This document shows, in pieces, positions 7,633 through 25,689 of a DNA stretch of 27,440 bases. A model generated the notes under the pieces. That model saw nothing but the letters and a program-made list of their open reading frames with translations. It had not been told where the DNA came from and made no database searches. The stretch comes from a virus. The stretch spans positions 1 to 27,440 of IMG/VR virus record IMGVR_UViG_3300020171_000111; one strand, 5' to 3'. The translations under genes were made by a program, and so were the position numbers. Each line of letters starts with the position of its first letter. Position 1 is the first letter of the stretch.

Positions 7633-7711
7633 TTTATTTACTCCTCCTTGTTTGTGCATTTGATTATTCTATCTTTAGCTATCTCATACATATCTTTATC
7701 TTTTTCTATTA

Positions 7712-7809
7712 GTTTCAATCCACGCTCCCGCGCTGGGAGCGACATAATACCAATATTTTAGTCATTATATCCCATTCGTTTCAATCCACACTCCCATTAG
7801 GGAAGCGAC
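7712..7809 (-). CRISPR. CRISPR-like mini-array: two type I-C-form repeats around one 34-nt spacer
   Basis: In minus-strand sense, repeat one is 7809-7778 and repeat two 7743-7712, each 32 nt, flanking a 34-nt spacer (7777-7744). Both begin GTCGCT and end GTGGATTGAAAC, the form of type I-C CRISPR repeats. The 7743-7712 copy has a perfect 7-bp stem CGCTCCC/GGGAGCG with loop AGCGC. The other has a different, imperfect stem that needs a G-U pair and a bulged U, and pairs well only in minus-strand RNA. The array lies 10 nt behind the ligase stop codon and ahead of the 7632 gene, so it is probably transcribed by read-through from P4. No cas genes are in the window. Repeat length, spacer length and orientation agree with a working or decoy crRNA unit. 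Confidence 0.8.
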
Positions 7810-7819
7810 TCTTTCGACA

Positions 7820-9091
7820 TTAGAGGTCTTCTCTCCATCTCACAAATATTGGAAATATTTTTGCCCCACGGCTTCCTTCTTTTTGAAACTTGATATCCAT
7901 CATTTTGCCTATGTATTTATCTTTGTTTTTCCATATTTCATCGCGCTGATCGTGAGAAAAGCCAGATCCTATTCTTGTAATAATACCTGTATCAGGGTCC
8001 TCTATAGCGATAGACTTCATAGTTTCGACTTCAATCATTCCTCCGGTTGCAGTATCTGCCCTTCTTTGTTCAGAACCCTCAATATCAACGCATTTTACAG
8101 CTAACGGTTCTTGTTCTGTATCCAATAACCAAGATTTTAACTTAATAAGATTATTTGTTCTCCCGTGTGCGTACGGAAAAGCCGGATTTCTAAAACAACC
8201 GCCTTCGTATCCTTGCTCTTCCATTTTCATAGCAAACTGTTCCATTCTTTTTGGAATGTTAGGTATTTTATAATGCGATACTGTTACAATATTTCCTATT
8301 CTTACGGTATCGCTTGATGGAATTATAATTCCAGTACCGCTTTGGTTTAAAAAGGATTTTACATCCCCAAAAGCAAACGTGTGATATTCGACGTGAGAAC
8401 AGTCTTCGCCTCCGTGTCGAAGAACGTCGCTCTGTAACTCTTCGAAGGTTGCTCCGTGGTTGTATCCTTCCCCATCAAGGAACGAAAAGCCATACTTCAA
8501 TCTAAAAGCCTCCAAATCTGGGAGTAGGTGCGGCATACGGCTTGTTATATCCTTGCCTGTTCTAGTGTATATTGTCCATCCTGGATTAGGAAATCCGTAT
8601 AAAGATACGAGACGGAGACCGTCCATCTTAGCGGACGCTTTCCATTGTTTTACAGAGTACTGTTTATCAGGGTCGTATCTTCCGGCAAGCATAACATCAA
8701 AGGTTGTAACGAGGCCAGAAAAGACTTTGTTGATTTGTTTAATTCCAAATCCTAATTTAAGATTTTTCCGTACTACTCCGAGAAACAATTCCTGTGTGTC
8801 TTTATTACACTGGCCGAGAAATGGAATCAGCATTTCTCTATTTTTCTGCGGAGTTGCCGAGTTTTCCATTATATCTAATATGCCGGTAAACTCTTCCCAC
8901 ATTTCCGATGCAGTTCTGGAACCGGAGTCGCGGAGATCAATCTTTGACATCATATGATATTGAACAAAGGGCTCGTAAGCCCTATATAGCAAGTCCTTTA
9001 GTTCGGGATATCGCTTGGCCGTATCTAATAGAATTTCTTGTTTATATAAAATTCCGTTTGTTGCCTTACATCGTTTTATTATTTCTTCCAT
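7820..9091 (-). CDS. ATP-dependent DNA ligase, phage type (423 aa)
   Basis: Seals nicks in DNA through a lysyl-AMP intermediate, for replication and repair of the phage genome. Motif I is AKMDGLR with the nucleophile Lys155. Motif III is seen as TRTGKDIT, then FLDGEG (IIIa), EGGCFRNP (IV) and IKLKSW (V). The C-terminal OB domain ends with a motif-VI-like FPIFVRWRED. The N-terminal 150 residues are a helical domain. Organisation and length fit small phage ligases of the T7 type but with a longer N-terminus. I start at ATG 9091 (GGAGGAAC upstream); a TTG nine codons earlier lies inside a hairpin. It shares a transcript with two small genes behind P4 and is followed by the mini-array. Confidence 0.93.
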   Translation of the reverse strand: MEEIIKRCKATNGILYKQEILLDTAKRYPELKDLLYRAYEPFVQYHMMSKIDLRDSGSRTASEMWEEFTGILDIMENSATPQKNREMLIPFLGQCNKDTQELFLGVVRKNLKLGFGIKQINKVFSGLVTTFDVMLAGRYDPDKQYSVKQWKASAKMDGLRLVSLYGFPNPGWTIYTRTGKDITSRMPHLLPDLEAFRLKYGFSFLDGEGYNHGATFEELQSDVLRHGGEDCSHVEYHTFAFGDVKSFLNQSGTGIIIPSSDTVRIGNIVTVSHYKIPNIPKRMEQFAMKMEEQGYEGGCFRNPAFPYAHGRTNNLIKLKSWLLDTEQEPLAVKCVDIEGSEQRRADTATGGMIEVETMKSIAIEDPDTGIITRIGSGFSHDQRDEIWKNKDKYIGKMMDIKFQKEGSRGAKIFPIFVRWREDL

Positions 9092-9110
9092 TTGTTCCTC
9101 CAGAAACAAC

Positions 9111-9141
9111 TCAGGCAAAGAGTTTTATTTTCTTTGCCTGA
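9111..9141 (-). other. 10-bp hairpin in the ligase leader
   Basis: TCAGGCAAAG and CTTTGCCTGA form a perfect 10-bp stem with an 11-nt loop, just before the ribosome site of the ligase. No T-tract follows on the minus strand, so it is not a standard terminator. It may protect or separate the ligase message, or act as a processing site. Confidence 0.6.
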
Positions 9142-9162
9142 TAGTTTGTAAGCTGTATTTAA

Positions 9163-9462
9163 CTATTTAGTATTCACCTGTTCCATCAGTTTATCAATGG
9201 CTCCCTTACCTAAAGGGACAGAAATATCGGTATCGGCCACAGTTACTTTGTCTGTATGAATTAATACAGTTGCAGGAATATCTGGGTTTTCAAATACGAA
9301 AGGATTTTCGTTGTTTGTCGGTTGAAATCCTCTTTTCTTCAAAGCCCGAATAAGCCCTGCCTGTGAAATATTGGGAGTTCCTACTTTTGCCTTTAAAGTT
9401 ACTTCTTTTGGAATTTCTGCCCCTTCTACTACGGTGTTTACTTTTTTCTTTTTTAGCGCCAT
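9163..9462 (-). CDS. Small paralogue of the 3985-4518 C-terminal domain (99 aa)
   Basis: Begins MALKKKKVNTVVEGAEIPKE, a basic tail, followed by the shared domain: LIRALKKRGF, then a variable strand region, then VPLGKGAIDKLMEQV. The same two landmarks and spacing occur in the 177-aa protein at 3985-4518. The domain might bind nucleic acid, given the basic N-terminal tail here and the acidic linker in the paralogue, but that is inference. ATG 9462 is chosen for the AGGAG upstream; the in-frame ATG at 9480 lacks one. Confidence 0.7.
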   Translation of the reverse strand: MALKKKKVNTVVEGAEIPKEVTLKAKVGTPNISQAGLIRALKKRGFQPTNNENPFVFENPDIPATVLIHTDKVTVADTDISVPLGKGAIDKLMEQVNTK

Positions 9463-9486
9463 CTGTCTTCTCCTTTTCATTATTAG

Positions 9487-9786
9487 TTATAAATCTTCGA
9501 TGTACTTGCTCGCATCTAAGTACTGTGCCCTTAATTCCCCTTTAAGTGTTTCGCGTTGTACCCCCGGAGGCGCCATCCTTAAAATTGCCCGCAGTAAAGC
9601 ACCTAAATCTTCATCATCGCCTTCGAGGGCAAAAGCTATCTCACTCAAATCTTTGGGCATTCCTACTATTATATAGGAGGCTAAGTTAAGTCTGTTTTTA
9701 AAAAATTCGCCTATTCCTGTGGCTAATTCCGAAGAACTCTCCGTTTGTTTGCCTGCAATGGATAAAGATGTTTTTCTGGTTGCCAT
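9487..9786 (-). CDS. Hypothetical protein, first gene behind P4 and the solitary repeat (99 aa)
   Basis: Begins MATRKTSLSIAGKQTESSSE, with a mostly helical, moderately acidic remainder (FALEGDDEDLGALLRAILRM) and C-terminus DASKYIEDL. Not recognised. The ribosome site TATAGGAAC lies in the roughly 34 nt that separate the solitary CRISPR-like repeat (9821-9851) from the ATG. A repeat-cleaving Cas nuclease would therefore cut this message just upstream of its ribosome site. Its position as first gene after a strong promoter suggests an early or abundant protein. Confidence 0.7.
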   Translation of the reverse strand: MATRKTSLSIAGKQTESSSELATGIGEFFKNRLNLASYIIVGMPKDLSEIAFALEGDDEDLGALLRAILRMAPPGVQRETLKGELRAQYLDASKYIEDL

Positions 9787-9820
9787 AATTTTGTTCCTAT
9801 AAAGTTTTTGTTATATGTTT

Positions 9821-9851
9821 GTTTCAATCCACACTTCCTGCAAGAAGTGAC
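9821..9851 (-). CRISPR. Solitary CRISPR-repeat-like unit in the P4 leader (31 nt)
   Basis: In minus-strand sense it begins GTCACTTC and ends GTGGATTGAAAC. The stem CACTTCT/GGAAGTG (7 bp including one G-U) closes a TGCA loop. The sequence differs from the other repeats in both stem arms, with pairing kept. It lies about 40 nt after the predicted P4 start and 34 nt before an ATG. No second repeat is near, so it is a single unit. Confidence 0.75.
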
Positions 9852-9896
9852 TGTAAAAATTTTGTAATATAAATAAGGTGTTATCTTTTATTGTTA

Positions 9897-9925
9897 AGTA
9901 TAGTATAGGTTAAATTAAAAGTCAA
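9897..9925 (-). promoter_or_regulatory. Promoter P4, sigma-70 type
   Basis: TTGACT (9925-9920), 17 bp, TATACT (9902-9897). Start near 9890. It transcribes the solitary repeat, two small genes, the DNA ligase and, by read-through, the mini-array. It lies in the gap behind the terminase stop codon. Confidence 0.8.
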
Positions 9926-9939
9926 CAAATATCGTTCTC

Positions 9940-11988
9940 TTAAATTAATCTACCTGAATTGTTTGTCCTTATCCTTCTGGAGTCTGTATCTTTTAGTCTA
10001 TTTCCTGACCCTTGGGGTCGGTTTCCAGCGTTGACCGGACGCCCTCCTGTTTGCCCATCGGTTCTATATGAAGTCCTTCTAGTAGAAAATCTATGGACTA
10101 TAGCGGCTACACAATCAGAAATGTCCTTGCTCCCGCGTCCTTGTGCAGGATGATCAATCTTATCTGTTCGAGGGTCGTGTATTAGGCTCTTTATTTCCTT
10201 TAATAGGACTGGACTATTTGGATACATTATTCTTTCGGTAAGAATCGCGGTCTTTAGGTCTTTATAGGGCTGGATAGTTCTGTCGACACTTTGGACTGTA
10301 CTAGAGATTCGATTGGTTCTAAACGACTGGAGCATCATAGCACTTTCGTACGAATCCATAGTGATAAACACTATATTTATATGCTTTTTTAGAAACAAAA
10401 TCAGATCTCTAACCGCAAACAAATCTATTTCTCTATTGGGAGTCGGTACTATCGAAGTTGCTCCGTCTATACAAAATATAGGTAGCGTTTCTTCAGTACT
10501 GTTCATCGGGTCTTGTGATCTAGATCTCGTGAATCCGAAAACTCTTCCTATTGCCAATCCTAAGCTGTCTCCCGTTAAAGCTAAATCTATGTGTCCGCCC
10601 ATTCTTGTATGAGGATCTAAATGATTCATAAGGTAATCCATATTTATCATGCTTTCGCTGGTATGGATTTTTCTTTGGTCTATTGTGTCGGAGATAAATA
10701 ACTGGTTACCTTCGAATATGTTGGTATGTTTTTCAGCCGCAAGGGTTATTTTTTCTATATTTCGTATAAACTTACTTATACTTCCTACAGAAACACCTGC
10801 TATATCTCTCAGAGAGCCATCGAAGTCTTTTTCAAAACTATCTTTATATTCAACGGGAACATCTTTAAGTTCCGCTCCTAATGTTGGCTCTTCATCTTTT
10901 TCTATTATTTTCCCATGTGTATTTTCGGAAGGCATTTCTATCTTAAAGGTTTCCCCACTGAATCTATTAGCAGGGAGGGATTCCCATTGAGCCATATTCA
11001 TAACGAAAGTAGTAACATTTTCACCCGCTGCTATTTTAAGTTCTGTCTCTTGTATTTTTCTATCTATAAAGTTTCCCGGATAGTTAGCAGAGCCGACCAA
11101 GAAAAGTTTACCGGGGATTTTTCCAAGTATCATGAACCGGGATTCCATACGGCGTTTTACTGTATTGTATAAAGTTTCGGCTTGGTCATATACTCCGCCT
11201 TCTCTTCCAATCTTCTTAGAGCCGGATATTACCGATAAAAAACTCATTTCGTCGATCACGCCGCCCCAGATGTTTAATCCAAGAGCTGCTGTATCTGTAC
11301 TGGACAGAGGCATAATTACCAAACCTCCAGGAAATCTCAGTTCTGTTTTGACTTTTTTATCAAAAGGGAAATTTTTAAGGAAATACGGATTTAGAGATAT
11401 TCGAGCTTTAAATTGTCCGTATAAAACGCTCTTTGCGAGTTTGATAGAAGCGGACTGCATCATAAGAACTATTGAGGAGCCTGGGGCCAAACCGAATTCT
11501 AACTGCGGGGAATGGTAACTAGATATATCATAAACTAGATAAGCAAGGGCCATATCCGCGAAATAGTTCTTCCCGGAACCAATTCCTCCGCCGAGCGTAA
11601 CCTCGTGATATTTATGCTTATCCGGTTCAAATAGTCTTTTTAGTTCGGAAAGGATTGCGGGTCGAACAAACTCTGCTTGCCCCATATAGTCAGAAGAGCA
11701 AACGAATGTTTCTATGTCTACGGGTTCAAATTTTCTTCCTGGCCGGGATCCAAAGTGTTCTATTCCGTGTTGTAACAGGTGTCTGAAGGCATATAATAGT
11801 TCGTAGGCAAATTCTTGCTCTACGGAATCCCCGGGGTATATTTCTAATCCTTCTACTATTCTGTCTAAAAGAACGTTTCTGAGTTTGTAGGATACTCCTG
11901 ATCGAGTTAAGGTAGTCTCTATTAGATCAAGAATCTCCGACTTCGATATATTCAACGGGTCGTTCAATTTCTTTTTGTTTTTGCTCAT
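9940..11988 (-). CDS. terL: Terminase large subunit (682 aa)
   Basis: The DNA-packaging motor that translocates phage DNA into the prohead and cuts it. The ATPase domain shows Walker A GGGIGSGKN (133-141) and Walker B VIDEMSF with Asp246-Glu247. The C-terminal nuclease domain has acidic residues in an RNase-H-like pattern: Asp468 in HIDLAL, Asp545 in FITMDSY and Asp622 or Asp625 in KDISDCV. The last 45 residues are basic, Gly/Arg/Asn-rich and probably disordered. Length suits large-phage terminases, and no intein or break is seen. Its ATG lies inside the end of the upstream gene (62-nt overlap). P4 follows its stop codon. Confidence 0.92.
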   Translation of the reverse strand: MSKNKKKLNDPLNISKSEILDLIETTLTRSGVSYKLRNVLLDRIVEGLEIYPGDSVEQEFAYELLYAFRHLLQHGIEHFGSRPGRKFEPVDIETFVCSSDYMGQAEFVRPAILSELKRLFEPDKHKYHEVTLGGGIGSGKNYFADMALAYLVYDISSYHSPQLEFGLAPGSSIVLMMQSASIKLAKSVLYGQFKARISLNPYFLKNFPFDKKVKTELRFPGGLVIMPLSSTDTAALGLNIWGGVIDEMSFLSVISGSKKIGREGGVYDQAETLYNTVKRRMESRFMILGKIPGKLFLVGSANYPGNFIDRKIQETELKIAAGENVTTFVMNMAQWESLPANRFSGETFKIEMPSENTHGKIIEKDEEPTLGAELKDVPVEYKDSFEKDFDGSLRDIAGVSVGSISKFIRNIEKITLAAEKHTNIFEGNQLFISDTIDQRKIHTSESMINMDYLMNHLDPHTRMGGHIDLALTGDSLGLAIGRVFGFTRSRSQDPMNSTEETLPIFCIDGATSIVPTPNREIDLFAVRDLILFLKKHINIVFITMDSYESAMMLQSFRTNRISSTVQSVDRTIQPYKDLKTAILTERIMYPNSPVLLKEIKSLIHDPRTDKIDHPAQGRGSKDISDCVAAIVHRFSTRRTSYRTDGQTGGRPVNAGNRPQGSGNRLKDTDSRRIRTNNSGRLI

Positions 11989-12604
11989 TAGGAAACCTTA
12001 TCTTTCTTCCCTTTAAGGAACTTAAAATAGTTCCAAGAGCTTCGACTACTTGGTCTTTCTCTGTTCCTATCTGGTCGGTTAATAGTGTATGGCCATCCGA
12101 TAAGTTACCGTGTAGAGAAGCTATACCTAAAGTCTTAGGCGCTCTGTATACAAAGCCCATACTCTGCAAAGACTCTATAAGTTCTTTTTCTATTTTCCAA
12201 GATGCAGCATAGCTGCCTTCCCTTCTTGCTTTTCTTGATAAATGTTGAGCGGTTTGGTAAAGACGTCCGGCTACTTCGAGCAGATTAAGTCCTTTTATAA
12301 TCTTAGTTCTATCTTTAGATAAGACCTCTAAATCGTCACCGATTGTCCTTACATTTACTTCAAATAGACGAGACATCTCTTCTTTAGAATAACCTTCGAG
12401 TCTTAAATAGGCTACTACTGGCCGTCTATCTTTAGCCTGTAATTCGGAGGCTTTAAGAGTTCCGTCCCTAATCATGGATAGAACTTCGGCGGCATTTTTG
12501 TAAGCTCTTTCTTCGTCAGGAGAATTTGGTTCCAAAAGTTTTCCATGTCGAGTTTGGGCTTCTGTACTAAATTCTCGCTGGGTCATAATATCCTTGTCGG
12601 ACAT
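11927..12604 (-). CDS. terS: Probable terminase small subunit, HTH protein (225 aa)
   Basis: Located directly upstream of and overlapping the large terminase gene, the usual place of the small subunit, which recognises the packaging site. Residues about 75-110 form a helix-turn-helix: a helix with VVAYLRLEGYS, a turn, then KEEMSRLFEVNVRTIGDDLE as recognition region. The rest is helical with a basic middle (SRKARREG) and a charged C-terminus. No enzymatic motif is present. The assignment rests on position and HTH, not on direct sequence recognition; it could instead be a regulator. It starts 10 nt after the ParB/PAPS fusion gene stop. Confidence 0.65.
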   Translation of the reverse strand: MSDKDIMTQREFSTEAQTRHGKLLEPNSPDEERAYKNAAEVLSMIRDGTLKASELQAKDRRPVVAYLRLEGYSKEEMSRLFEVNVRTIGDDLEVLSKDRTKIIKGLNLLEVAGRLYQTAQHLSRKARREGSYAASWKIEKELIESLQSMGFVYRAPKTLGIASLHGNLSDGHTLLTDQIGTEKDQVVEALGTILSSLKGRKIRFPNEQKQKEIERPVEYIEVGDS

Positions 12605-12614
12605 GGTATTACTC

Positions 12615-14072
12615 CTATATAAAATACGGTCTTGGGAGTTCTACTCCGCGTATTCTTTCAAGTTCACAAGTAAGTTCTTCATCAGACATAGCATACTGTT
12701 CATATATAGAGTCGGCTTTTACCGCTTCTTCTTGTATCTCATCTGGCAGAACTAAATATTTATCTACGAAGTTGGAAAATTTTCCAGACTTTCGGGATGA
12801 AAGACTGTGCCATTCCATTATCTGTTTATAGGATTCTGAATACCTTTCTTTTATTATATGCAGAAGAGTTGGCTTACTGCTTGGGCAGCACATACACCCT
12901 GCCCTTGGCGAAAACTGGTATACAGGATTTAATTTCATGCCGTGATCGAAGGTATATTTAGCTGTTTCGTCACCTTTCCATGCTATAATCGGGGAGCAAT
13001 AATTAAAAGGTGTTCCTTTAAGGGAGCCCCTTTCTGGATATTCTCTTTCCCTATTCTTAGATTCTTCCCATCTTATTGAGATTATTTTTAACCGTTTTTT
13101 ACCGTCGGCTTCTCTCCATCCCTGAGCTATTTCTGCCGCTTTCATACCGGTCAACTTAATAGAGCCCTGTATAAAGCACATGTGCGGTATCATGAAGCCT
13201 TTTTGGATTAATCCTTCTTCAAGTTGTGTAGTATCGTTACTGCCGCCGACAACTATTTTTTTATCCCAGCCGTATTTAGTTTTAAAGAAGTCGTTGGCGT
13301 AGTCTATATACTCTATAGACTGCGGCCATTCTACTCTCCAGCCAGGATTTACAAAAAGTAGATTTATTTTTCTCGGGTCGAAGTGTTCAAAACACCAAAT
13401 ACTTGAAGCAAGAGAATCTTTGCCACTCGAAAAGTTGATAATAATTTCGTCATGGTAGTTTACAAAGTCTTCCATAGATAGTTTGTATAACTCTTTGTCT
13501 TCGAGTTCGGAGATCATACTGGACTCCCCATAGAAAGGATTCCGTTCTCCGTCTGCATCGAACATATTCCCGCGGTTTTCTTCTCTTTTATCTTTTTCGG
13601 TTTTCTTTGGTATAGGAAGTTCCCCCAGCATATCTTCAGGTAAGATTTTATCGAGTCCCTTTAAGTCGAAACCTAAGTCCTGGATTGAAACCTCATTACC
13701 CAAAGATAAAATTTCATCTATCAGAAGACGAGGATCCCATTCGGATTCCGCTAATTTATTATCGGATATTATAAGGATTCTTTTTTCCCCTTCAGACAGA
13801 TCTATCCTCCGAATTACGGGAACTTGTTCCCTGCCCAAAAGTTTTAGAGCCTCCCATCTTCCGTGTCCTTTTAGTATCATAGAATCCTCATCTATTACCA
13901 TAGGTACATCGAATCCGTAGTTTCTAATCGAAGAAGCTATTTTTGATATCTGGAGTTTGGTATGGCACTTAGTGTTTTGTTGATACGGTTTTAGGCTGTT
14001 GATAGGGACAAGTTCATATTCTATCTTTTCTTCTCGTTTTTTATACTGTAGTTTTTCTGTTACATCTGGCAT
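12615..14072 (-). CDS. ParB-like / PAPS-reductase-like PP-loop fusion, intact motifs (485 aa)
   Basis: Residues about 18-140 are a ParB/sulfiredoxin-type domain: PINSLKPYQQNTKCH, the nucleotide motif GHGRWEA (69-75) and SDNKLAESEWD. Residues about 205-430 are a PAPS-reductase-family PP-loop domain: INFSSGKDSLASS with SGKDS (216-220), IRWEESKNRERE as the ES/R motif, and GCMCCPSSK (392-400). Members of this family adenylate substrates or reduce or transfer sulfur. As separate proteins the same pair occurs in the IbrB/IbrA prophage regulators and resembles DndB/DndC-type partners; here they are fused. The substrate is unknown; DNA or RNA thio-modification is a guess. Behind it lies the terminase; ahead lie a solitary repeat and a GAACACGTGTTC site. 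Confidence 0.85.
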   Translation of the reverse strand: MPDVTEKLQYKKREEKIEYELVPINSLKPYQQNTKCHTKLQISKIASSIRNYGFDVPMVIDEDSMILKGHGRWEALKLLGREQVPVIRRIDLSEGEKRILIISDNKLAESEWDPRLLIDEILSLGNEVSIQDLGFDLKGLDKILPEDMLGELPIPKKTEKDKREENRGNMFDADGERNPFYGESSMISELEDKELYKLSMEDFVNYHDEIIINFSSGKDSLASSIWCFEHFDPRKINLLFVNPGWRVEWPQSIEYIDYANDFFKTKYGWDKKIVVGGSNDTTQLEEGLIQKGFMIPHMCFIQGSIKLTGMKAAEIAQGWREADGKKRLKIISIRWEESKNREREYPERGSLKGTPFNYCSPIIAWKGDETAKYTFDHGMKLNPVYQFSPRAGCMCCPSSKPTLLHIIKERYSESYKQIMEWHSLSSRKSGKFSNFVDKYLVLPDEIQEEAVKADSIYEQYAMSDEELTCELERIRGVELPRPYFI

Positions 14073-14177
14073 ATTTAAGTATCCTTCCTTATTTATTATA
14101 TACTCTCAAAAAGGAGCAGCAACCGCTTCGTCTATCGTCTGATAGATATCGGTGCAGTCCCGTCCAGCCATTTCGTT

Positions 14178-14206
14178 GTTTCAATCCACGCCCCTTTCGG
14201 GGCGAC
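14178..14206 (-). CRISPR. Solitary CRISPR-repeat-like unit with GAAA tetraloop (29 nt)
   Basis: In minus-strand sense: GTCGCCCCGAAAGGGGCG followed by the invariant tag GTGGATTGAAAC (sharing one G). The stem CGCCCC/GGGGCG is perfect and is closed by a GNRA-type GAAA loop. It sits about 36 nt after a GAACACGTGTTC palindrome and a TATATT box, and 105 nt before the ParB/PAPS fusion gene. The intervening bases contain a second hairpin (TCTATC/GATAGA). The open frame across this region has no ribosome site and looks non-coding. Confidence 0.75.
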
Positions 14207-14242
14207 TCGGTTGTCCGCTCCTTTGTCAGAATATATAATTTT

Positions 14243-14254
14243 GAACACGTGTTC
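14243..14254. promoter_or_regulatory. GAACACGTGTTC palindrome, copy 3
   Basis: Shares the 20-bp context AAATGAACACGTGTTCAAAA with copy 4. A TATATT box follows 9-10 bp downstream on the minus strand, so the palindrome occupies the -35 region of a possible promoter for the solitary repeat and the ParB/PAPS fusion gene. Confidence 0.6.
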
Positions 14255-14269
14255 ATTTCTTTAAATTTT

Positions 14270-14943: not shown

Positions 14944-15983
14944 TTTATCCCTGCATTACTGTCTAAAATCTGTATAAACCAAATTCTTGCTTTATTGGAT
15001 ACACTTGCTCCGATTTCTTTCGGAGTTATTTTATTTTCCTCTAATACATCGAGTTCTTCTTTTATTATATCGTGAAATACCCACCTCAAAAAATCTCCCG
15101 TTTTAGATATATCAGGTTCTATATTGTTAGAGGTGAAAACTTGTTCTATTCCTTGGGCTAATCTGTTCTCCGTTACTGCGTATTCTATAAAATCCTTTAT
15201 TGAATTTAACTTTTCAGTATCTACTGGGATAAGAGTTTTTACTTTGGATATAGAATGTTTTTCTCCTTTGGTTTTAAAGATATATCGGTTTCCTTTAAAT
15301 TCCGAACTCCAAACTATACCTTCCCCTATTCCTATTTTTCCGAAGTGTTTAGCTACGGGGCATTCTTTTTCTACTTCAGAGACAAACTCTATCATTTTAT
15401 TCTGGGATAATCCCGGAGTTTCAAAATCTATATCAATTTCGTAGGTTTTGAAATGCTCTATATTATAGATGTTCGATTCGTTGCAGCTAAGACAAATGCT
15501 ATCAATATAATATGGCGGGATATTTTCTGCCGCTGGTTTAATCTTTACCGCAAATATTACGAACATTTTCTCTAATTGGCTAATCGCAACTCCCTTTTGA
15601 ATACCTTTACCGCACCATTCTCCAAAAATTGTCACTATATCTTCTTCTTGCAGGTTTTCTGTTTTGTATACAGTATTACAAAGCGAAGCGAACTCGTTTT
15701 GTAATTGATTCGCAAAGAAAGCAAAGCCGGCGTTATCGTTGTCTATTGTTATTATATTACTTCTGCTTTGAAACCACATTCCGTCTTTTTTAGAGAAAGA
15801 CACTCCGGCATTTGTACCATGCAGTTTTACCGTCCCCTTAAAAATTAATTTAGGCATTTTTATAGTAGTATCATATACAGGTTCTCCTGCATCATCTTTT
15901 CCTATATATTGGTTATGCAGTCTGATAGCTTTTATTATATTCCTAAATTGTTTTATGTCTGTAAAAGGATTAAAATTTTTCAT
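14940..15983 (-). CDS. RNA ligase, Rnl2 type (347 aa)
   Basis: Joins RNA ends using ATP through a lysyl-AMP intermediate, typically to repair tRNAs cut by host defence nucleases. Nucleotidyltransferase motifs run in order: I as VKLHGTN with Lys53; a SRSN segment near 73; IIIa-like FGEWCGKG (120-127); IV as EGIVWSS (221-227); V as FKTKGE with Lys237/Lys239. KxHGTN and the GEW motif are characteristic of the Rnl2 branch. The C-terminal 100 residues are a helical domain. The start overlaps the stop of the second ParB/PAPS fusion gene (ATGA) with GGAGAG upstream. It sits between the two fusion genes, suggesting a shared transcript and possibly a shared RNA-directed role. Confidence 0.88.
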   Translation of the reverse strand: MKNFNPFTDIKQFRNIIKAIRLHNQYIGKDDAGEPVYDTTIKMPKLIFKGTVKLHGTNAGVSFSKKDGMWFQSRSNIITIDNDNAGFAFFANQLQNEFASLCNTVYKTENLQEEDIVTIFGEWCGKGIQKGVAISQLEKMFVIFAVKIKPAAENIPPYYIDSICLSCNESNIYNIEHFKTYEIDIDFETPGLSQNKMIEFVSEVEKECPVAKHFGKIGIGEGIVWSSEFKGNRYIFKTKGEKHSISKVKTLIPVDTEKLNSIKDFIEYAVTENRLAQGIEQVFTSNNIEPDISKTGDFLRWVFHDIIKEELDVLEENKITPKEIGASVSNKARIWFIQILDSNAGIK

Positions 15984-17308
15984 TGTTTAAAACTCTCCAT
16001 GGCAAATTCAGCAAACGGCAAAAGAGCTCTCGGGTCTATAGATTCCGCAATCATGTCTTTTAATACCCTATCAAAATTTTCGCTATATCGGTACGATCTA
16101 TTCCGTTTTGAATAGCCAAAATATTCGAGATTTGTAAGCCACGTCTTTAGCATATTATTTTTCATGTAAGCGAAGTCGGGGCTTTTGTACTGAGGGCAAC
16201 AACAACAGGAGATACTGGTGAAATGTCGATACATTGGATGCAGCCCTAGTACATCTGAAAGATTCTTCTCCAAGAAAGCATATAAATCTCCGTCTTTAAA
16301 CTCTATGAAGGGGTTAAAGTAAGTGTAGGATCGTTCAAACTTTCCTATCCTTCTGAAGTGTTCTGCTTGGTCAGAAGTAGCTCCGAGTACCATTACCGTC
16401 TTAGGAGTAGCAAGACCTTCTTTTCTAAGCCAATTTTCTATTGACGGAAGGACTATTCCTATCTCACACCATAGATTCTCCAAACTGGGGTATCCCTGCG
16501 TTGATATTCTTCCCCGAAATTCTGTATCATCTGGAGGACTTGCATTTATAAATTCTGCATCAAGCATTTTAGCGGCGTGTTCTAAATACGGAATAGTGTC
16601 CTCAAACTGAGGGGTTCCTGGATTTGAATAAATAAGCAGCATACGTTTAGAAGAATCTATTTGTCTAACTTTAAGCGCGGTAGCTATGGACATAGCTCCT
16701 CCGTTGGTAGGGATAACAACTGTATCAAACTCGAAAAGGACAAACTCGTCGTCTTTTTTATTGATATAAGGGTCTGGACTCCCAATTTTTCCGTCCTGTT
16801 GTCTTCGGTTCATAAACCCAACAAGTATCCCTTCTGTCCCATGCGGTATTTTATAATCTACCTCTTCTGTTTCCATCATTCCGGGAAGGAAACTCCTTAT
16901 TTCCATTTCGGAAAATCCTGTATCTGTGACGGGAAGATTAGGGTCGTCCAGTCCGTACAGAGCTTCGAGTTCTTCGATTAAGGCCGGCATATCCCAATAG
17001 GATTCCGCAACTTGGTTGTCGGCTATTCGAGCTGCCTTAGCTTGCTGTAGAGTAAGATTTCCTCTGACTATTATAGGTACTTTTTTCCATTTTAGTTTTT
17101 TGGCGGCGGCCATTCGAGCATGGCCTTTTATAATCACGTTGTCTTTATCCACAACTATAGGAACATCGAACCCGAACTTTTCAAAAGTATAGGCTAATTT
17201 TTCTATCTGTTCGGTAGTATGGATTTTAGGGTTCTTCTCATACTCGTGAACTGTATCAATATCCACCCATGTTATTACATTTAGTATTTTATCTATTCCT
17301 TCTGGCAT
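15980..17308 (-). CDS. ParB-like / degenerate PAPS-reductase-like fusion (442 aa)
   Basis: Same architecture as the 12615-14072 protein: ParB/Srx domain (about 10-140) with KGHARMAA (61-68) and ADNQVAESYWD, then a PP-loop domain. Here the signature is lost: the expected SGGKDS position reads TNGGAMS (201-207), without Lys-Asp-Ser, and the ES/R motif reads GATSDQAEHFR. Other landmarks persist: LLIYSNPGTPQFEDTIPYLE parallels the first protein's NPG region, and SCCCCPQYKSPD (367-378) parallels its Cys cluster. It is probably a non-catalytic or altered-specificity partner of the first protein. AAAGGGA precedes the ATG. Confidence 0.82.
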   Translation of the reverse strand: MPEGIDKILNVITWVDIDTVHEYEKNPKIHTTEQIEKLAYTFEKFGFDVPIVVDKDNVIIKGHARMAAAKKLKWKKVPIIVRGNLTLQQAKAARIADNQVAESYWDMPALIEELEALYGLDDPNLPVTDTGFSEMEIRSFLPGMMETEEVDYKIPHGTEGILVGFMNRRQQDGKIGSPDPYINKKDDEFVLFEFDTVVIPTNGGAMSIATALKVRQIDSSKRMLLIYSNPGTPQFEDTIPYLEHAAKMLDAEFINASPPDDTEFRGRISTQGYPSLENLWCEIGIVLPSIENWLRKEGLATPKTVMVLGATSDQAEHFRRIGKFERSYTYFNPFIEFKDGDLYAFLEKNLSDVLGLHPMYRHFTSISCCCCPQYKSPDFAYMKNNMLKTWLTNLEYFGYSKRNRSYRYSENFDRVLKDMIAESIDPRALLPFAEFAMESFKQ

Positions 17309-22342: not shown

Positions 22343-23209
22343 CTAAGCGCCTGCGAAATCGTTTCTATCCCCGTGCTCGTTACATTGTACTTTAAAGGGG
22401 CATTCTTTATTTTTACAGTTTACAAGTTTAGGAGGGATCATATCTTCGTCTACTCCTCTCTTTACCTGCATATAGAAGTTCATTAATGTATCTTCTATCT
22501 CTCGGGTTAAAGTTACTTTTATTGTTCTTACAGGAGCTTTAAAGGACATTTTCTTAGAAATATAAAACAAGTATCCTGTGGTATGGTCTACTTCTTGCGG
22601 CATTGTATCGTCGTATTTTGAACATAGGAGATAGGAAGCTAGTTGCATTATATCTCCTCCTCGCGGTTCTGTTTTATCGTCCGCTACTCCTTTAATATCT
22701 GCTATTCTATATCTAACGGGATTCCCTACCGGCAGAAATAGATCTATCTTACCTGTTGCATAAAAAGGATCGCTCATTGTGAAGTAGTGCTCTTTATATC
22801 TAAAGAGGCTATTGTCTGCTCCGCATTTTGGACAGTTTCCTAGCGGTCTTACTCCAAAGGAAGATATGTACTGACAATTTTTACATTTCCATTCCCCGAC
22901 TATATTGGGGAATAATACCGTACTGTTTTGATAATACTTGTGTATAGCACTTCCTATACCGAAGACCATAAGAAGCGGAAAGTGTATGAATTCTGTTCTT
23001 TTTAGGTCGGAGGTAATTCCAAATACCCATTCCCGCGCACAAGATCCATCGATAGAGGATGCTCTCGGATATTTATATCCGGATTCCCGTACTGTTCCAC
23101 TTGTTTTACACAAAGCTCTGGTCAAGGCTATTGGGTCGTTTATATTGTCTATGGAAAGCGGTGGAAATTTTATATCATCTACCTTTAACATCCTACTTAG
23201 GATTTTCAT
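22343..23209 (-). CDS. Cas4/RecB-like PD-(D/E)XK nuclease with Cys cluster (288 aa)
   Basis: RecB-family nuclease motifs: Cys57 in SCAREW, FGIGSAIHKY (motif I His90), ATGKIDLFL with Asp156, IADIKGV with Asp171/Lys173, and QLASY (189-193). Cys57 with Cys265, Cys270 and Cys276 near the end form the four-Cys set that holds an iron-sulfur cluster in Cas4 and AddB. A separate zinc ribbon (Cys109, 112, 126, 129) is inserted ahead of motif II. Phage members of this family act as single-strand exonucleases in recombination. It follows the RecA gene and the zinc-finger nuclease, so recombination is the likely role. Cas4-like does not imply CRISPR adaptation here. Confidence 0.82.
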   Translation of the reverse strand: MKILSRMLKVDDIKFPPLSIDNINDPIALTRALCKTSGTVRESGYKYPRASSIDGSCAREWVFGITSDLKRTEFIHFPLLMVFGIGSAIHKYYQNSTVLFPNIVGEWKCKNCQYISSFGVRPLGNCPKCGADNSLFRYKEHYFTMSDPFYATGKIDLFLPVGNPVRYRIADIKGVADDKTEPRGGDIMQLASYLLCSKYDDTMPQEVDHTTGYLFYISKKMSFKAPVRTIKVTLTREIEDTLMNFYMQVKRGVDEDMIPPKLVNCKNKECPFKVQCNEHGDRNDFAGA

Positions 23210-23713
23210 TTATATTATCCTCTGTTTTCTAAATAGTTCCTTCATCCAATATGGTATTAATATTATTGGTTCGTCTATTGTTAGAACTGCCTCGTTGAAC
23301 TTCTTTCTGCCGCCCAATGCCCAGACTCCTTTTACTTCCACAAAAGTACTATATTCTGGAAAATAAAAATCAGGAGTCCAGTGTCGAGTTCCTTTAAATA
23401 GTTCTAATGTAACAGATTCGTATAGATATTCTAATTTGTGTTTTGTAAAATACTCGGCTACTAATACTTCAAATTCTGATCTAAACGGTTTTCCTAGAAT
23501 GGTTGAATAATTCAAATAGAATTCAGATACTATCGGTTTCTTTGTAGCTTTTCTCTCCGAAATATCTAATATATCTGAGTTATTCCGTATAGCCTTTACT
23601 ATACATTCTGGAGAGCAAAACACATCTGCATTTCCGGGAGTATCCTTCCAAAGATCGGGATGTATAATTATGCGTCCTCGGCATATACTGCATATTTTTG
23701 TTGGCGATTTCAT
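23210..23713 (-). CDS. Zinc-finger PD-(D/E)XK endonuclease (167 aa)
   Basis: An N-terminal zinc finger (Cys8, Cys11, Cys33, Cys37: CSIC and CSPEC) precedes a small nuclease domain: FRSEFEVLVAEYF (Glu80), HWTPDFYFPE (Asp115) and FVEVKGVW (Glu126, Lys128). Order and spacing match PD-(D/E)XK nucleases of the type found in phages and TnsA-like or very-short-patch-like enzymes; the precise family is uncertain. Its ATG overlaps the stop of recA (ATGA), so it is made with RecA. It could cut branched or foreign DNA. Confidence 0.75.
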   Translation of the reverse strand: MKSPTKICSICRGRIIIHPDLWKDTPGNADVFCSPECIVKAIRNNSDILDISERKATKKPIVSEFYLNYSTILGKPFRSEFEVLVAEYFTKHKLEYLYESVTLELFKGTRHWTPDFYFPEYSTFVEVKGVWALGGRKKFNEAVLTIDEPIILIPYWMKELFRKQRII

Positions 23714-25689
23714 GGTTTACTCAATGCTTTTCGTTTCTTTTCTTCTATAATTCTCTTTTGTAGAGAATAGTAAACTTGATCGTTTCCTTGAAATAAGGAT
23801 AATAAATCTGCTTTGACATAAAGTGTATTGTTAAACATATAAGAGTTTTTTGTATCTGTTTCCTGAACAAATCCTTCTTCAAGAGCGTAGGCCAAAACAC
23901 TATCATGATCTAATACTGTTCCTCTGGTAAAGGCGCTTGCGGATGATAGAGATACATTAAACTGGCAACTGCCGGCCAATACTAAACACTTTTTCTTGCT
24001 CATAGAAGAACCTAAAGATATTGATATTGTAGTGTGTTCTGGCATATCGTCCGAATCTTTTTTAGTTACTGATCTTTTTCCGGCTCTGGCAGATAAAGTA
24101 AAATCATGTTTGCTTGCATTTCCTCCCGGAGCTTCTTCTGTGGGACCAAAGGATGCCGGTTTTGCCCTGACTTGGTTCAGCATTAAAACAGTCACATTAT
24201 GCCCTGCTTTTCTCTCCTTCATAAGAAGCGTCTTACCTTTTCGTACCATATATGAAACAAGCCTTGCCTGTGTCATAACATAATTGTCTTCCGCACTTCC
24301 TGCCATTTCTGCATTTGGAGTTAAGGCTGCTATCGAATCTATTACTATAAATCCTACGTCGTCTGCTCTAAGTGCAGAATGGTAAATATCCACATACTCT
24401 TCGCCAGTTAGACCATAGATTACATCTAAGTCGTCAGAAATTCCAAGGTCTTCCGCCCATCCCCAGTCAAATGATCCTTCACAATCGAGTAGCAGAGACT
24501 TCATTTTCTTAGGGCCTTCTTTACATTGGCAGTCCCACTCATACTCGTAGCATCGGTGGCAAAGATAGGTTGCCTGTACTATAGTTTTTTGGGCTATATA
24601 TGTCTTCGCACTATTGTGAACAATAAAGCCATTGGCTACAAAATTTCTATAAGGGTCTTCCATTATTATATCGTATGTATTTTCTATGCCGTAATACTCG
24701 ATAGATTCTATTTCCTTTTCCATAGTATTACGATTTGGAAACATTGTTGGTTTCCAGTGTAAACGACTATGTTCTATGCAGGTTAGTATCTCAAGGTTAT
24801 CTAAATCATTGTTAGTGAGGTCTTCGTCTATATGGTGAATTTGTAAATCGATAGGTAAAAATTTAAGTCTTTTGGATATATCCTCTTCTGTTTTTAGAAT
24901 TGATATAAAAGTATCGATATCCATATTGTTCATATCTGCTTCTACTACTAATCTTGAGTATACCAATCTTTTGTAGTCAGTTTCAGATACTATCTTTTTC
25001 CAAGCATATGGATGGTATTTAATTCCGCTTACGCTTTTTCTACTTGGTCTATAGGAACAATCTGTCCCGTACGGTATATTTCTTTGGCATAGTATTGTGT
25101 CTCCTACTGATAAATCTTTTAATTCTATAAAACCATCCTGGTCTGCTCCTTTAATATTATTAGGAACTTTAAAAGGATGTGTTTCGGTTACTCTTATTTC
25201 TAATCCGTCATGTGTTCTTACTATATATGTCTCTTGCTTGCCGCTATATATAACGTCATGTATATTATGGTAGCCTATAAATCCGTCTTCTTTAAGGGAA
25301 GGAACTCTGGACGGAGAGTTTCTATCCCATTTCTGATAATTTCCTTTACCTTTTACATTTAATCCGTGAAATTTCAAAAATAGATTCTCTATTGTATAGA
25401 CTCTGCCTCCTCCTCTTTTTCCTCTGTTTATAAGAATTTCGGTATCTTGCGATAAGCAACCCCAACTGCCCCAGATTGAAGATACAGAATGAATAGGGAA
25501 TCCGCCGGCAAAACATACGTCTAGAGGAAAAATTCCTGTGGGTATTCTCTTAAAATCTCGTGGAGCAGAGGAGGCCTTTAAGAAACTTCCGGCTCCATAT
25601 TTTTTACCTCCCGCTCTAATTATTTTGGCCAAATTAGGAGAGCCTTTTTCTGTGGGAGTTGTGCCTTCTGATAATTTTGTCATTCTCAC
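23710..25689 (-). CDS. recA: RecA-family recombinase interrupted by an intein (659 aa precursor)
   Basis: After splicing it gives about 377 residues of a RecA/UvsX-type strand-exchange ATPase. The intein (residues 78-359) splits the P-loop: GSWG before it and SAKT after, so the mature loop is GSWGSAKT. Walker B is VGFIVIDSIAAL, and VTVLMLNQVRAKP marks the next core strand and DNA-binding loop. A small Cys-rich insertion (LCHRCYEYEWDCQC) follows the P-loop helix, possibly a zinc site. The start is GTG 25689 or ATG 25683; the first is better spaced from AAAAGG. The gene overlaps its neighbours on both sides and leads the nuclease genes. Confidence 0.88.
   Translation of the reverse strand: MRMTKLSEGTTPTEKGSPNLAKIIRAGGKKYGAGSFLKASSAPRDFKRIPTGIFPLDVCFAGGFPIHSVSSIWGSWGCLSQDTEILINRGKRGGGRVYTIENLFLKFHGLNVKGKGNYQKWDRNSPSRVPSLKEDGFIGYHNIHDVIYSGKQETYIVRTHDGLEIRVTETHPFKVPNNIKGADQDGFIELKDLSVGDTILCQRNIPYGTDCSYRPSRKSVSGIKYHPYAWKKIVSETDYKRLVYSRLVVEADMNNMDIDTFISILKTEEDISKRLKFLPIDLQIHHIDEDLTNNDLDNLEILTCIEHSRLHWKPTMFPNRNTMEKEIESIEYYGIENTYDIIMEDPYRNFVANGFIVHNSAKTYIAQKTIVQATYLCHRCYEYEWDCQCKEGPKKMKSLLLDCEGSFDWGWAEDLGISDDLDVIYGLTGEEYVDIYHSALRADDVGFIVIDSIAALTPNAEMAGSAEDNYVMTQARLVSYMVRKGKTLLMKERKAGHNVTVLMLNQVRAKPASFGPTEEAPGGNASKHDFTLSARAGKRSVTKKDSDDMPEHTTISISLGSSMSKKKCLVLAGSCQFNVSLSSASAFTRGTVLDHDSVLAYALEEGFVQETDTKNSYMFNNTLYVKADLLSLFQGNDQVYYSLQKRIIEEKKRKALSKP
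24613..25458 (-). mobile_element. Intein with HNH homing endonuclease in the RecA P-loop (282 aa)
   Basis: First residue Cys (CLSQDTEILI, block A), block B with TETHPFKV, a C-terminal block with TYDIIMEDPYRNFVANGF, and end HN before extein Ser (block G). All residues needed for self-splicing are present. Between blocks B and F lies an HNH nuclease motif: IHHIDEDLTNNDLDNLEILT, then a later His in EHSRLHW. This is a full-size intein with its own homing endonuclease, and the target is the most conserved part of recA. Confidence 0.92.

Follow-up and report, generated by a model that had tools for sequence, protein, structure and literature searches.

The viral record IMGVR_UViG_3300020171_000111, analysed here over its whole length of 27,440 bases (the window, to which all unit coordinates refer), carries four units that resemble type I-C repeats of CRISPR (clustered regularly interspaced short palindromic repeats) arrays, all of them intergenic and all in the minus-strand sense. 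The presence of these units is confirmed. They are best read as virus-encoded mimics of type I-C repeats, probably RNA anti-CRISPRs (Racr-like) that would work through their fold and their handle, a role also put forward in the original prediction made on this DNA. Repeat-mimic decoys are already known; the novelty is the occurrence of several stem variants in one phage genome.

Read 5' to 3' on the minus strand, the units share one layout: GTC, a stem of 6-7 base pairs (bp), a loop of 4-5 nucleotides (nt), the second arm of the stem and the invariant TGGATTGAAAC. The units and the stretch between two of them are as follows.

U1: 7743-7712, minus strand; GTCGCTCCCAGCGCGGGAGCGTGGATTGAAAC, 32 nt; stem CGCTCCC/GGGAGCG, loop AGCGC; covariance model E=8e-11; fold -13.4 kcal/mol.
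U2: 7809-7778, minus strand; GTCGCTTCCCTAATGGGAGTGTGGATTGAAAC, 32 nt; stem CGCTTCC/GGGAGTG with two G-U pairs, loop CTAAT; E=4e-9.
Intervening stretch between U2 and U1: 7744..7777, minus strand; 34 nt, the length of a I-C spacer.
U3: 9851-9821, minus strand; GTCACTTCTTGCAGGAAGTGTGGATTGAAAC, 31 nt; stem CACTTCT/GGAAGTG, loop TGCA; E=1e-7.
U4: 14206-14178, minus strand; GTCGCCCCGAAAGGGGCGTGGATTGAAAC, 29 nt, shortened; stem CGCCCC/GGGGCG, GAAA loop of the GNRA type; E=4e-8.

The positions, the 5' GTC and the fixed 3' tag are those originally predicted, and a covariance model built from the units of other viruses, with the four window units left out, recovers all four (E values from 1e-7 to 8e-11; the next best match in the window has 0.013). 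The window has exactly four copies of the 12-mer GTTTCAATCCAC, which lie at 7712, 7778, 9821 and 14178 of the plus strand. With up to two mismatches the 12-mer has nine matches against 2.2 expected, a count to which no shuffle gets. A fifth tag-like 11-mer (13681-13691, plus strand) lies inside a gene, has no hairpin and was rejected as chance. Intrinsic terminators were likewise rejected as an identity of the units: no T-run follows the hairpins and no minus-strand terminator-like site listed falls on a unit. An Rfam scan of the window gave no family up to its cut-off.

All 27 stem positions of the four hairpins are paired (7/7 in U1, U2 and U3, 6/6 in U4). The stems of U1, U3 and U4 are as predicted, whereas U2, previously described as imperfect, pairs fully in the canonical register (CGCUUCC/GGGAGUG), including its two G-U pairs; U3 has one G-U pair. 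That the G-U pairs of two units exist only in minus-strand RNA agrees with the fold energies of U2, -10.1 kcal/mol for the minus-strand RNA as against -5.4 for the plus-strand one. Relative to shuffles, U4 is the most stable unit (fold z=-3.2). Among the four units, two-sided changes are seen at three base pairs of the stem, and to this extent both arms do change together, as had been claimed. The covariation becomes strong once units from outside the window are added, which supports the proposed selection on RNA hairpin structure.

These outside units come from a scan of IMG/VR for the tag with GTC at the right distance and the stem unconstrained, which gave at least 119 stretches. Among the matches listed, pairing is bimodal, with 53 of 137 units pairing at 7/7 positions; for two random 7-base arms the chance of this is roughly 0.1%, from (6/16)^7. 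Location follows pairing among the same listed matches: 48 well-paired units lie between genes and 24 inside, against 10 and 33 of the unpaired ones. The stem sequences are very diverse. In a chosen set of 32 units the covariation score is 0.75, compared with 0.22 after shuffling and at most 0.20 in slid registers, but this set was picked for pairing, so the bimodal pairing is the less biased evidence. Units of unequal length were padded with N in the loop to a common length, since plain MAFFT had set gaps wrongly in their 5' arm.

In a model search of 157 whole viral records from IMG/VR, two or more dispersed loci turned up in at least 17 records besides the window; 15 of these have non-identical stems and 11 have two-sided compensatory changes. 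Among the closest parallels, IMGVR_UViG_3300034989_000084 (G124) has three loci with stems CGCCTCA, CGACCTA and CGCTTC, and the others have three loci (G061, 3300037313_001148) and four (G127, 3300048611_000204). A dispersed set with diversified stems is thus a recurring arrangement and no peculiarity of the window phage. When stems were compared within genomes in 18 records, the window among them, 176 cases were unchanged, 33 had changed on both sides, 35 had changed on one side with pairing kept, and 13 were broken; comparisons inside one record are not independent of each other.

Loop and length were also compared. Of 28 distinct viral units, solitary or paired, whose loop has four bases, six have a GNRA and two a UNCG tetraloop, eight in all where about 1.3 would be expected; the P value of about 3e-5 assumes equal base frequencies and belongs to a test picked after U4 was seen. 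The 29-nt length of U4 recurs in 8 of 109 paired solitary units and in 0 of 103 array units, these arrays representing 13 loci only. Tetraloops and length both speak for selection on the stability of the RNA hairpin and against copied array repeats. Individual viral solitary I-C units with GAAA, UUCG, GUAA or GCAA loops are found at L042, L046, L094, L013 and L035.

Cas5d products carry handles at both ends, 11 nt long on the 5' side and 21 nt, with the hairpin, on the 3' side (PMC5965380). Set against these products, the invariant part of the units is the 5' handle and the variable part is the 3' handle with its hairpin. RacrIC1, a I-C unit carried by a bicistronic phage mRNA, is known to restore phage infection (PMC10651486). 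The invariant/variable split and the RacrIC1 precedent make operon transcription, cutting by Cas5d and Cas loading onto RNA that gives no useful guide the most likely working of the units. They would be transcribed along with the surrounding minus-strand operons, one of them shortly past a promoter-like site. Host Cas5d would then bind each hairpin and cut at the 3' base of it, yielding an RNA that begins with the 11-nt handle UGGAUUGAAAC and runs on into phage mRNA, together with a hairpin held by Cas5d. Such products could tie up Cas5d, Cas7 and Cas8c in complexes that lack a useful guide. As guide, these complexes would carry the phage sequence that lies downstream of the unit, and the phage itself should escape targeting because the handle, and not a protospacer adjacent motif, adjoins the matching sequence.

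The differences between the stems are most simply explained by drift under selection for pairing. Since Cas5d requires a short stem and the handle but no set stem sequence, the stem of each copy may drift freely as long as it stays paired. Divergence may also reduce recombination between copies. A stronger version, to which we give some weight while leaning against it, is that the decoy stems were diversified by selection, either against recombination or against stem-discriminating hosts, with handle and fold kept, and that the units belong to a multi-copy class of RNA anti-CRISPRs missed by identity searches.

The original prediction had instead suggested one stem for each host repeat type, such that every stem copies the repeat of another host and the RNA anti-CRISPRs of the phage form a host-specific panel. 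This is quite improbable. The U1 stem is a common natural stem, and a Methanomassiliicoccus metagenome-assembled genome (MAG) has a three-repeat array with a U3-like stem, as a host panel would have it, but the U3-type stem is present in just 2 of 84,980 species genomes, one of the two being a prophage-like unit whose host uses another stem in its own array, and the 29-nt GAAA form of U4 is absent from the 103 array units. Two stem types are moreover found within one host, in the arrays of a Methanomassiliicoccus MAG with cas5d, and even within one array on a viral contig (L165/L258; L258 is IMGVR_UViG_3300031901_000009), where CGCCCCC and CGCACCC share the same tag. From this it can be argued that one I-C system tolerates several stems, and stem identity seems not to set specificity. 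A stem of 3 bp closed by a tetraloop is reported to suffice as a Cas5d substrate (PMC7064716, citing Nam et al. 2012); given so low a requirement, one I-C system should accept all four units. In a Desulfovibrio MAG, contig C140 holds cas5d and an array of GTCGCTCCTACACAGGAGCGTGGATTGAAAC (stem part GTCGCTCCTACACAGGAGCG plus tag), whereas the prophage-like contig C11, with a tail-fibre gene, holds a single GTCACTTCCTAACCGGAAGTGTGGATTGAAAC (GTCACTTCCTAACCGGAAGTG plus the same tag); the tag is identical and the stem of the prophage-like unit does not match that of its host, in a comparison of one pair that errors of binning may affect. A scan across the family Desulfovibrionaceae returned mainly arrays. 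The solitary I-C unit of C11 (L228, 3362-3393) lies between the tail-fibre gene and a regulator gene. An improbable alternative is that the units are cis-acting sites, at which host Cas5d, or a Cas complex recruited by the phage, either cuts polycistronic mRNAs between genes or represses the gene that follows, with decoy action secondary. Repeat-like sequences of other kinds do mediate Cas-dependent repression (PMC10651486), all four units are intergenic and in sense orientation, and several viral units are followed after 13-60 nt by a gene in the same orientation that has a ribosome-binding site. In other viruses, however, just 13 units share the orientation of their co-oriented flanking genes and 6 oppose it, a weak bias from crude gene calls, and mRNA processing that relies on a host CRISPR system would confine the phage to such hosts. 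Host repeats could be acquired by phages through recombination, and the units might then be captured, non-functional repeats in decay. This is very improbable: decay would hit stems and tag alike, yet the tag is invariant and every stem position is paired, and the wider viral set shows compensatory changes and stable tetraloops.

For U2 and U1, a one-spacer mini-array has to be weighed as well, in which the I-C machinery of the host would make a real crRNA whose 34-nt guide GAATGGGATATAATGACTAAAATATTGGTATTAT is directed at a locus of the host or at a competing virus; U3 and U4 would then be separate decoys or relics. The spacing of U2 and U1, not mentioned in the original prediction, is exactly a I-C spacer length, viral mini-arrays that attack related viruses are known (PMC11656645), and viral contigs exist with two identical repeats spaced 34-35 nt apart. 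The repeats of a mini-array should be near-identical, however, and U1 and U2 differ at 7 of 32 positions (about 78% identity). No convincing target of the 34-nt stretch was found in IMG/VR (with a 27-nt core), genomes (24-nt core), phages, plasmids or the window, these collections being incomplete and two of the scans demanding exact matches. On its own, the stretch has a weak predicted fold (-2.5 kcal/mol, z -1.2). A mini-array at U2-U1 is unlikely on balance, and it is compatible with a decoy reading of U3 and U4. Several observations weigh against the interpretation of the four units as RNA anti-CRISPRs. At their 34-nt spacing, U1 and U2 look more like a mini-array than like two decoys. Covariation within the window alone is modest, the score of the four units being matched by 32 of 500 shuffles, and from four sequences it is only suggestive. 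The other multi-unit records were collected partly via structure-favouring patterns and a structure-scoring model. Finally, no anti-CRISPR or defence genes of known kind were recognized beside the units.

As candidate RNA anti-CRISPRs, the units resemble RacrIC1 and the viral solitary repeat units (Camara-Wilpert et al. 2023, PMC10651486) in being virus-encoded and intergenic, with a I-C fold and handle outside a recognized CRISPR-Cas locus, and, like RacrIC1, they may be embedded in phage mRNA. They differ in that the window has four units in 27 kb with four different stems, one of them shortened and with a GAAA loop. Virus-borne mini-arrays (PMC11656645) share the one-spacer layout of U2 and U1 around the 34-nt stretch, but not the divergence of the two repeats or the lack of a target in the collections scanned. 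With type I-C repeats, the substrates of Cas5d, the units have in common the GTC start, the stem of about 7 bp, the loop of 4-5 nt and the handle; unlike them, they form no array, one is shorter, and no Cas effector gene was found among the window genes examined. SRUFinder (PMC10651486) keeps matches at least 90% identical to a known repeat and drops units with repeat-like flanks, so sets like the present one would be largely lost. The available parts of PMC10651486 and of the review PMC11656645, and a wider literature search, yielded no mention of diversified dispersed sets in one genome. If the proposed role is correct, RNA anti-CRISPRs are defined by fold and handle and not by identity to a host repeat; present surveys would then undercount them, and the stem sequence would say little about the host. 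Natural sets that combine four stems with a single tag would also supply ready-made variants for probing which features of a repeat are recognized by Cas5d and the I-C complex.

Nearly all genes of the window lie on the minus strand; they include those for a terminase, a DNA ligase, an RNA ligase and a UvsX-like recombinase, besides many small ones. The features next to the units are as follows.

7820..9118, minus strand: ATP-dependent DNA ligase gene (phrog_114, E=2.8e-61), upstream of U2 and U1 on the same strand.
9487-9786: gene of 99 residues, downstream of U3 and 34 nt away.
9897..9925, minus strand: sigma-70-like promoter TTGACT-17-TATACT, 45 nt upstream of U3.
9940..11988, minus strand: terminase large subunit gene, on the same strand as U3 and upstream of it; tblastn matches to annotated TerL proteins of Vibrio phages at 33-36% identity.
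12615..14072, minus strand: ParB-N/PAPS-reductase-like gene, downstream of U4 on the same strand.

The intergenic gaps that hold the units are 7660-7819 (U1 and U2), 9787-9939 (U3) and 14073-14269 (U4), and the genes that neighbour each unit share its sense. U2 starts 10 nt past the stop codon of the DNA ligase gene and U1 follows after 34 nt; U3 and U4 have no other repeat within about 100 bp. U3 lies between the terminase gene and the 99-residue gene, and U4 between a gene of 100 residues and the ParB/PAPS-reductase-like gene. A 69-residue open reading frame across U4 has a TTG start, overlaps the next gene and was judged not to be a gene. Promoter-like sites as a class are no more frequent in the window than in shuffles, which makes the site before U3 weak on its own.

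No close DNA relative of the window was matched in 50,697 phage records, and no terminase relatives were found in IMG/VR. A search with the AAA-ATPase gave two distant contigs only (L124 and L125), the whole records of which are without units.

Two minus-strand genes, 12615-14072 and 15980-17308, both fuse a ParB-like N-terminal domain to a PAPS-reductase-like domain; weak SspD similarity is seen in both and weak BrxP similarity in the former only. The minus-strand gene at 22343-23209 encodes a Cas4-like PD-(D/E)XK exonuclease (phrog_2506 and phrog_1706, 'CRISPR/Cas system associated') and also has a rubredoxin-like zinc-ribbon match. The UvsX/RecA-like recombinase gene (23710-25689, minus strand) is split by an intein with an HNH nuclease. 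Upstream of U4, at about 14243-14254, GAACACGTGTTC forms a perfect 12-base palindrome, possibly an operator.

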